In this document: positions 16,075-19,300 of the stretch, piece after piece
Position numbering within the stretch: position 1 is the first letter of the stretch
Layout of the letters: each line of letters starts with the position of its first letter
Assembly (NCBI RefSeq): GCF_019059575.1
Contig: NW_024881863.1
Span: 248,001 to 312,000 of the forward strand
Source: Amphibalanus amphitrite
Taxonomy: Eukaryota; Arthropoda; Thecostraca; Balanomorpha; Balanidae
Length of the DNA: 64,000 nt
Reading direction: 5' to 3'
The notes under the pieces: model-generated
Database searches by the model: none
What the model was told of the DNA's origin: nothing
The model's input: the letters and a program-made list of their open reading frames with translations, nothing else
Made by a program: the position numbers and the translations under genes

Positions 16075-16311
16075 CTAGATATCGGTCGTCCTCTCGGGGT
16101 CGGAGGGTTTCGAATCGTCCACCTTTCCATCCACATCGTCCAGGAGAACCGTCTTCTCCGGCGGCATAGCCACAGTGGCCGGCTCGGGCTCCTCCACACG
16201 GATGGCTCGCACACTGCTGTGGAGAGGAGGCGCCAGCTTGCAGGCCAGGAAACTGTCCTTGTAGATCTTGGCGGCCAGACACCCACCGAAGATCGGTCCC
16301 AGCCAGTAAAC
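16075..16311 (-). CDS. AQP: Aquaporin alternative last exon 5b (distal), 78 residues
   Basis: This exon starts in phase 0 after CCGCGCAG with [17 protein letters not shown], a second complete version of helix 6. Its tail is longer and acidic, rich in Asp, Glu and Pro. The C-terminus TTDI fits a class I PDZ ligand (Ser/Thr-X-hydrophobic). The stop is TAG at 16075-16077. A CTAAC branch-point-like motif lies 31-35 bases upstream of the exon. The shared YWxGPxxGG start and same phase indicate an old duplication of the terminal exon; the two tails no longer resemble each other. Confidence 0.9.
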   Translation of the reverse strand, partial: VYWLGPIFGGCLAAKIYKDSFLACKLAPPLHSSVRAIRVEEPEPATVAMPPEKTVLLDDVDGKVDDSKPSDPERTTDI

Positions 16312-19300
16312 CTGCGCGGCACGCCCAGACGCAGAGAACGAGTTAGAGGGATTAATGTCCAGGAAGTTCATCACACACGCATCCATTGACACTTGTACGC
16401 AACACATTACTACTAAAGTGCAGCAAAAAAATGTTATTCTTGGTCCATAAATATCAGATCAAATGAGCAAAAGTTAAATATTTTACGAGCGCTCAGTTCA
16501 ATGAAAGCTAATGAACATAGATGGGAATTTAAAACCGTGCAGATAAAACCGATAGCCGATAAACTTTATCATGACTACATTACACTGTGCAGGCTCTAAA
16601 GACGAGCACTGAGAATTAAATCAGACAAACGCTGGGCAATATTCAAAAACATTGATTTTAGTGTATAACCGTGATGTAGTTTTAATTGTCACTTTGTATC
16701 ATAGTATGTAAGAAAACAGAGTGAAGGCAGAATAACAGAAAGCAGAAGAAGCGACAAGAAAAGCAAAAGCTCAAGAAGCTCGCATGCAAGACGGAAGACC
16801 AGGAAATCCATTAGAGTTCAACTCCTGTTAATAGTTTGTTAAGAAAAACATGCAAAATTGTACAGTATAATACAGAAGAGTTTGTATGTAACGTATGCCT
16901 TTCTCTTTCCTGTCAAGTAACGTACACAGCACCTCGTATAGAGAAGAGGGTGTTTTTACACGGGAGCCCATGCACTAACACCACGAGCTAACGATCGCCT
17001 CCGCCCACGGCTGAGTCCCAGCTGCGTGTCTGGCGCGCCGCGACTGGTGCAGAAGCCCCGCGTGCCATGCAGACGGCCGAGACACCGGCGGACACCAGCG
17101 CGCCGCGAGAGAAGGAGAGCGACGGACACCCGCCAGCGCGCGGCCGGAGTCCGGCGCCCGCCTCCACAGCCGCTCCGAAGATCGTACCTGCACGGCCAGC
17201 GCCTATTTGCTGGCGCGCTGTGGCTTCACCTCGGTCAACTCGACCGCCTCGACAGCCATGTGGCGGGCGCGGAAGGCATGCGTATAGACGAGGCCGGCGA
17301 TGATGCCACCGGCCAGAGGGCCCGCCCAGTACACCTGCCGCACACACACACACACGCCACGCAACGGCGGTAGAGACGCCATCACAGACTCGATGGATAC
17401 GGGAGTCAACATTGCACGGCATTGATCGGAGACGAACGAATAACACGGGGATCGATGTCAAATAGGTGTGGGATTGCGACGGTTGGTGTGTAAGAAATTG
17501 ATTTGATCAATCGAGATGGTACTTTTGTCGCTGCAGAATTGGTGACGTGATGGTTTCCGATGGAATCGTAGGAGAGGCGCTATGCCTAGGATGTAATATT
17601 AAATCGCTACACGTGTAAACTAATGCAATATTCAAAAGCACCTAACCGTGCCGTTGTAGACAGAAAATAACTCTTGAAGTCCATGGGATACATGCGTAAA
17701 GTAGTCTTCAGTCAAAACTGTAGGCAAGACATGAGTACTTACAAAAGCTAATAATTTTGGGCTCTGATAACCTAATTTCCTCAGTATTATACCTGGTTCG
17801 CCGAAAAGCAATATCACGTACAAAACAGTTCTCGGGACATGTCTTAGCATTCGATTGGTAGAATAACCCTAAAAACATTTCAGCAGAACGGGTAAGCTGG
17901 ATATTACCGCAAAAAGTTTTCGTATTGTGGTGGTACGGTTCGCGGGTGTGTTAAGCGCGGGAGCTAGACCAGAGAGGCCTGACTAAGGCATGTGACTATA
18001 TGCCTAAGTCAGGTCTCTCTGTTTTATACCTTAAAATCGACAACGTTTAAAAAAGGAGTACCATGAGTCCATGACACTACAAAAAAAAAGAAAAAAAGAA
18101 CGAGTTCATAATGGAGTTGCTTTAAAGGTTCGCATTCGGAAAGCATAGCATCAACAGCTGAGCATCGCATTTGGACAGCATTTGGAAATAGCGAACATTT
18201 GTACACGCTTCCCCGTGCGAACTATAACTGGAAGCGACTTCATACCTACAAATTCTCTAGAGACCTTGTTTCAAAAGACACACAGAAGGACAAATATCAT
18301 AAACCAGGATCAAACTGGCAGTGCAACCAACAAAATGTTTAGTCGTCGCCCCCATCTGCGACGTTATAAGTTTACGAACTGAAACGGCGCAGTTATACTT
18401 CGGTGTGTCTTTTGAACACATAACAGGCACTACCACCACCAAACAGACAGGGCATTTGAAGACAGAGCGTTCGAGGATAGACAAATGAAGACAAGTATCT
18501 CAGTAGAGCATGAGGCTTCACTGCTGATCTGATAGTTTTTAGACGGTTCGCTCGTTATCAGCTAGTCGACTGTAGCGCCGGCTGCTAGCGGGGGCGGGGG
18601 AGAGACGGGGCCCCCCACGGGTATAATGCCGCCGCCGACAGCCGTAACAAATCACGGATACACAACGACGTTCCACGGCCCTCGGCCAGACCAAACATGC
18701 CAATCAACCGGGCGCCGCCAAGCGACCAGCGCAACAGCCTGCTATGTACACGCGGCTAGTGCGGTCTGAAAGGCGGCACTGCTCGTCATCAGGGGGTCAG
18801 GCGGGCCCAGCGCGTGCTGCGGGGGCAGTTCCAGCCGGCGGGGACCGGTCACAGCTCACAGCGGAGGGCAAGCTGGAGCCATACCGTGCAGAGCAGACAG
18901 CAGGCTCCACAAGACGCTGTCAGCGGCTCTCATCTTGCTGCAAGCGCGGTTAAATATGTTACGATGCTCAGTTAGTTCCTAGTTAGTTTTGGTCGATTTT
19001 TACCCAATCTGTATGTACATTTCGCTTTTCTTTACTGCAACCCGCGTATCCCGTGTTTGATCTGCCTCCGTGGCCCATCGTCCACCCTATCATCGTCTCG
19101 GCGTTGCCCAGGCACGCGCCGGTCCGAGGTATGCGCGCAGGGAGGGTCGGGCTCCTCCAGTCACACCCCACCCCGTGAGTAAACTCAGCCCGAGGACGGC
19201 GCGGAGACCCGCCCGGCTCCCACTTCTTGCCTGAATGGGTCACGGCCGTCCCACTCCTCACAATCGTCCCCCACGCACCCACTCCGCCAAAGGAGTTACA

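Follow-up and report, generated by a model that had tools for sequence, protein, structure and literature searches.

The DNA analysed is a window of 64 kb, and it carries on its minus strand, from 55694 to 16075, a six-exon gene for a classical water aquaporin. All six exons are in phase 0 and their coding parts are multiples of three; when translated and joined in frame, exons I to IV are followed either by exon V (hereafter 5a), giving a spliced product of 263 aa, or by exon VI (5b), giving one of 298 aa. Exon I lay outside the original prediction and was located through the motif EFLGTMLLT at 55613. The parts of the gene are as follows.

55470..55694, minus strand: exon I, with the start codon, the N-terminus and helix 1; 75 aa ending in ATLAQ; donor GTGAGG (pattern search and reading, translated and joined in frame)
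32752..32895, minus strand: exon II, 48 aa ending in GSALLK, with the first NPA motif (NPAV) (Pfam MIP)
24418..24627, minus strand: exon III, 70 aa from ALTPEDV to GCHLGA, with the filter histidine (Pfam MIP)
20301..20381, minus strand: exon IV, 81 nt and 27 aa, with the second NPA motif (NPAR), the filter arginine and the shared donor GTGAGT
17341..17354, minus strand: (TG)7 tract, immediately 5' of the 5a acceptor
17203..17334, minus strand: coding part of exon V (5a), helix 6 and a short tail ending in RASK; 43 codons and the stop TAG
17188..17202, minus strand: 15 nt following the 5a stop, up to the donor-like CAG/GTACGA, where an intron would begin at 17187
16075..16311, minus strand: coding part of exon VI (5b), helix 6 and a long tail ending in TTDI; 78 codons and the stop TAG
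14414..16074, minus strand: putative 3' UTR of both mRNAs, running to the first AATAAA after 5b (14419)

This putative 3' UTR also contains variant poly(A) signals, including those at 15537, 15457 and 15230. The intron between exons I and II (32896-55469, minus strand, approximately 22.6 kb) contains two AG-type repeat arrays (33843-34034 and 34840-35007), and a nearly pure CT repeat of 805 bases (58759-59563, 406 units, 98% matches) lies approximately 3 kb upstream of exon I.

Elsewhere in the window, an open frame of 971 codons on the plus strand (4987-7902) is of the non-LTR retrotransposon type, with matches to Exo_endo_phos (1.6e-11) and RVT_1 (1.6e-38). A second frame of 185 codons on the minus strand (60397-60954) resembles by eye the terminal part of the reverse transcriptase of another retroelement and has no Pfam match at 0.001. 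A minisatellite occupies 12442-13697, with a 20-base unit (consensus CCCTGGCAGGCCTGTGGTGC) in approximately 60 copies with 65% matches, overlapped by arrays of period 67, 87 and 127; the long repetitive frames that it opens are unlikely to be genes. The window gave no tRNA matches and no Rfam matches at the gathering score.

Identity of the channel

The original prediction of an aquaporin is confirmed by matches to Pfam MIP (PF00230), with E values of 4.3e-61 and 5.1e-60, and by the two NPA motifs. With both spliced products as queries (without exon I), the Pfam match reaches the last profile position and the closest solved structures are AQP4, then AQP1; among the best 60 of 64 PDB matches, the AQP4 and AQP1 chains were recovered at 5e-47 or better and the glycerol channels at best at 4e-15. 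The residues of the selectivity filter, whose positions we take to be those of AQP1, are F (in LAFGI), H (in GCHLGA), S (in TGSSMNPAR) and R (in NPAR), and they are distributed over exons I, III and IV. Both this F-H-x-R filter and the nearest relatives are those of a classical water-selective aquaporin of the AQP1/AQP4 type, to which the channel belongs as judged by its sequence; it is probably Prip-like.

The presence of two helix-6 exons approximately 0.9 kb apart could also mean that 5a or 5b is part of a second, partial copy of the gene. We consider this origin extremely improbable: exons I to IV each have one match in the window by tblastn. Beyond these single matches, the search returned the cross-matches of 5a and 5b and two weak ones (E 0.49 and 0.70), and a second aquaporin copy in the window was rejected.

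Two alternative exons for helix 6 and the tail

It had been proposed that two phase-0 exons, both opening with VYWxGPxxGG, follow a common exon IV donor and that each of them has its own stop. This is what we find, with a CAG acceptor before both 5a and 5b and stops after 43 and 78 codons, respectively. The tails are also as described earlier, the one of 5a ending in RASK with 5 K/R and 3 D/E in 22 residues, the one of 5b ending in TTDI with 7 K/R and 12 D/E in 57 residues.

The protein alignment of 5a with 5b scores 78, against a mean of 19.2 (SD 3.6) for shuffled 5b, and since none of 1000 shuffles reached 78 the likeness is not due to chance. From the exon IV donor to 16312, a scan that ended just before the 5b acceptor and thus leaves it outside the count, an in-frame [VIL][YF]W follows only one of 188 AG dinucleotides, and this one is exon 5a. 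The GC content at third positions is 0.84 in 5a and 0.76 in 5b, compared with a GC content of 47-49% in those parts of introns 2-5 that were measured. An open frame by itself is weak proof of an exon: among 5000 random sequences, 681 had no stop over 43 codons and 147 had none over 78 codons. In helix 6, the codons of 5a and 5b agree at positions 1, 2 and 3 in 12, 14 and 10 of 21 cases, respectively, which weakly favours selection on the protein. At the protein level 10 of these 21 residues are identical between the two exons, while 9/21 and 10/21 are shared with a vertebrate AQP4; 5a and 5b are therefore similar, yet mutually as distant as each is from the vertebrate protein. A search of the 64-kb window in six frames with the pattern [YF]W.[GA]P found 5a, 5b and one match at 54854, and no third helix-6 exon; the match at 54854 runs into stops and was rejected.

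The pyrimidine tracts before 5a and 5b are poor (0.50 and 0.56, versus 0.75-0.94 for exons II-IV), which speaks for the view that a single exon is in use and that the other is the decaying relic of an old duplication. However, both frames are intact and encode a complete helix 6, the third-position GC is high in both and both acceptors have the consensus AG; furthermore, both forms are expressed from both Balanus genes according to the available text of Lind et al. (2017, PMC5513457). A relic appears very improbable in the face of these observations, and the use of both exons remains the preferred reading. Taken together, the exons, their frames, the splice-like sites and the homology make the predicted isoform switch, with helix 6 and the tail encoded by either of two in-phase exons, a likely one, the splicing in this species and the function of the switch being what we infer from them.

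Position of exon 5a in the transcript

The original prediction saw 5a as a last exon. This part of it is probably incorrect: a donor-like site follows the 5a stop and no AATAAA lies between 5a and 5b, so that 5a is more likely an internal exon. The donor-like CAG/GTACGA, 15 nt past the stop, fits 7 of the 9 consensus positions and is the only site scoring at least 7 among the 63 GT dinucleotides between the 5a stop and 5b. On the same consensus, the donor score is 7 for three of exons I-IV and 8 for the fourth. The site taken alone is weak, suggestive evidence, since a donor of such quality is expected in approximately 9.5% of 50-nt stretches on the minus strand of the window.

When eight poly(A) signals were scanned, AATAAA was absent between 17202 and 16312, and one ATTAAA (16686) and one GATAAA (16570) were found between 5a and 5b. 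Either of these could end an mRNA at 5a, and they speak for the earlier picture, in which 5a and 5b are genuine alternative last exons with separate poly(A) sites and the choice is made by polyadenylation. Against it stand the donor-like site, the missing AATAAA and the published barnacle arrangement, in which exon VI follows exon V untranslated (PMC5513457, available text), and we regard it as fairly improbable. In our preferred reading, 5a is probably a skippable internal cassette exon of 147 nt that contains a stop, and 5b is the last exon common to both mRNAs. This layout agrees with the arrangement published for barnacles, where exon V carries a stop and exon VI is left untranslated when exon V is included.

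The consequences for the two products would be simple. When exon V is skipped, exon IV would be joined to exon VI, leading to a 298-aa channel with the long acidic tail. When exon V is included, translation would stop within it, leading to a 263-aa channel, and exon VI would become 3' UTR. Stop codons very near to the downstream junction escape nonsense-mediated decay; with its stop 15 nt before the junction, the mRNA that includes 5a should therefore avoid this decay. The (TG)7 tract beside 5a is the only run of (TG)6 or longer on the minus strand of the window and is a possible site for UG-binding splicing factors. Together with the weak pyrimidine tracts of the acceptors, it would fit a regulated splicing, as a matter of compatibility and not of proof.

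Putative function of the switch and comparison with known systems

The claim that the choice of exon would change the last pore helix is supported, with one qualification. Helix 6 past VYW and the tail would be swapped, whereas the filter of the pore, encoded by exons I, III and IV, would not. Both NPA motifs and the filter residues lie outside 5a and 5b, and VYW opens helix 6 in both; the roles of the filter residues and of the VYW motif are those which we presume from known aquaporins. Because the filter is outside the swapped exons and VYW is kept in both, the selectivity should stay the same, and both products probably conduct water. The switch would most likely set the location of the channel (trafficking) or its binding partners. 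The end of the 5b tail, TTDI, fits a class I PDZ ligand, a motif that by our estimate approximately 3-4% of random ends would also fit. A more complete scenario may be put forward only as a tentative one, with the odds clearly against it: the helix-6 exon would have been duplicated before the crustacean groups split and retained since then as a switch by which an entire membrane helix and its sorting tail are exchanged (a PDZ-ligand-like TDI end versus a short basic one), the choice being steered by the UG run next to the acceptor of exon V.

Alternative ends of water channels are known in insects and vertebrates. In Anopheles gambiae, AgAQP1A and AgAQP1B have alternative 3' ends, both conduct water and they differ in organ use (PMC3774814, available text). 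There, only 17 or 11 tail residues differ, through an extra intron, and helix 6 is common, in contrast to the gene described here, where helix 6 is swapped; with this reservation, the mosquito variants count in favor of both forms being conducting. In the same source, variable 3' ends are also cited for Drosophila CG7777 and for Belgica, and ClAQP1 of Cimex lectularius, a water channel related to AgAQP1, is described with three 3'-end splice variants (PMC5468273, available text). In the vertebrates, the available parts of the reports describe an absence of water conduction in oocytes for dogfish AQP1SV1, with a different, shortened C-terminal end, and for teleost aqp1ab variants, which are truncated or have an extended loop. 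These forms, which arise from their parent channels by splicing, are variants of another kind than the two complete helix-6 exons found here; they nevertheless call for caution on the conduction by both forms.

Among crustaceans, the plan of exons I-V matches a gene of Daphnia as well (PMC5513457, available text) and is thus not specific to barnacles. The pair of alternative exons V and VI and the isoform length indicate that the gene is most likely from a crustacean and possibly from a barnacle. The same source describes two C-terminal variants of a water aquaporin in the amphipod Gammarus chevreuxi, which are thought to come from the skipping of exon 5; these were deduced from transcript assemblies, unlike the genomic exons presented here. 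The main text of an amphipod aquaporin paper contains no word starting with 'splic' or 'exon'. In the available parts of an Artemia paper splice variants are reported for the glycerol channels only, and in those of a copepod paper the variants concern glycerol channels.

The closest parallel comes from the barnacle Balanus (Amphibalanus) improvisus, where sequencing of the genome and of RNA established six coding exons in both AQP1 and AQP2 (Lind et al. 2017, PMC5513457, on which the following comparison relies through its available text). The short form v1 contains exon V and its stop, whereas the long form v2 skips this exon and stops in exon VI. RNA-seq data from a single individual contained both forms of both genes; v2 was read from PacBio and assembled data and not PCR-cloned. 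The arrangement is already known, since the same is published for these two barnacle genes. Six coding exons, a pair of alternative exons (V and VI) that both contain a stop, and a water channel with H in its filter are common to B. improvisus and to the genomic sequence described here. The long product has 298 aa here and 299 aa in Aqp1_v2. The comparison is made by exon plan and length, and the counterpart may be AQP1 or AQP2. The longest exon in B. improvisus, exon VI of AQP2, measures at least 1900 bp, and the distance from 5b to the first AATAAA is approximately 1.9 kb here, which may be a coincidence.

We thus propose, with a probability of about 0.8, that the locus holds an arthropod classical water channel gene with the splicing arrangement published for barnacle AQP1 and AQP2, and the genomic sequence supports this arrangement. 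In the available text of PMC5513457 the C-terminal variants are named and an exchange of helix 6 is not stated; relative to that text, our analysis adds that the whole of helix 6 is part of the swap, the divergence between 5a and 5b, and the distance of 15 nt from stop to junction. If both forms were regulated by salinity or by tissue, the gene described here would offer a simple case of a water channel controlled by splicing in animals facing changing salinity.
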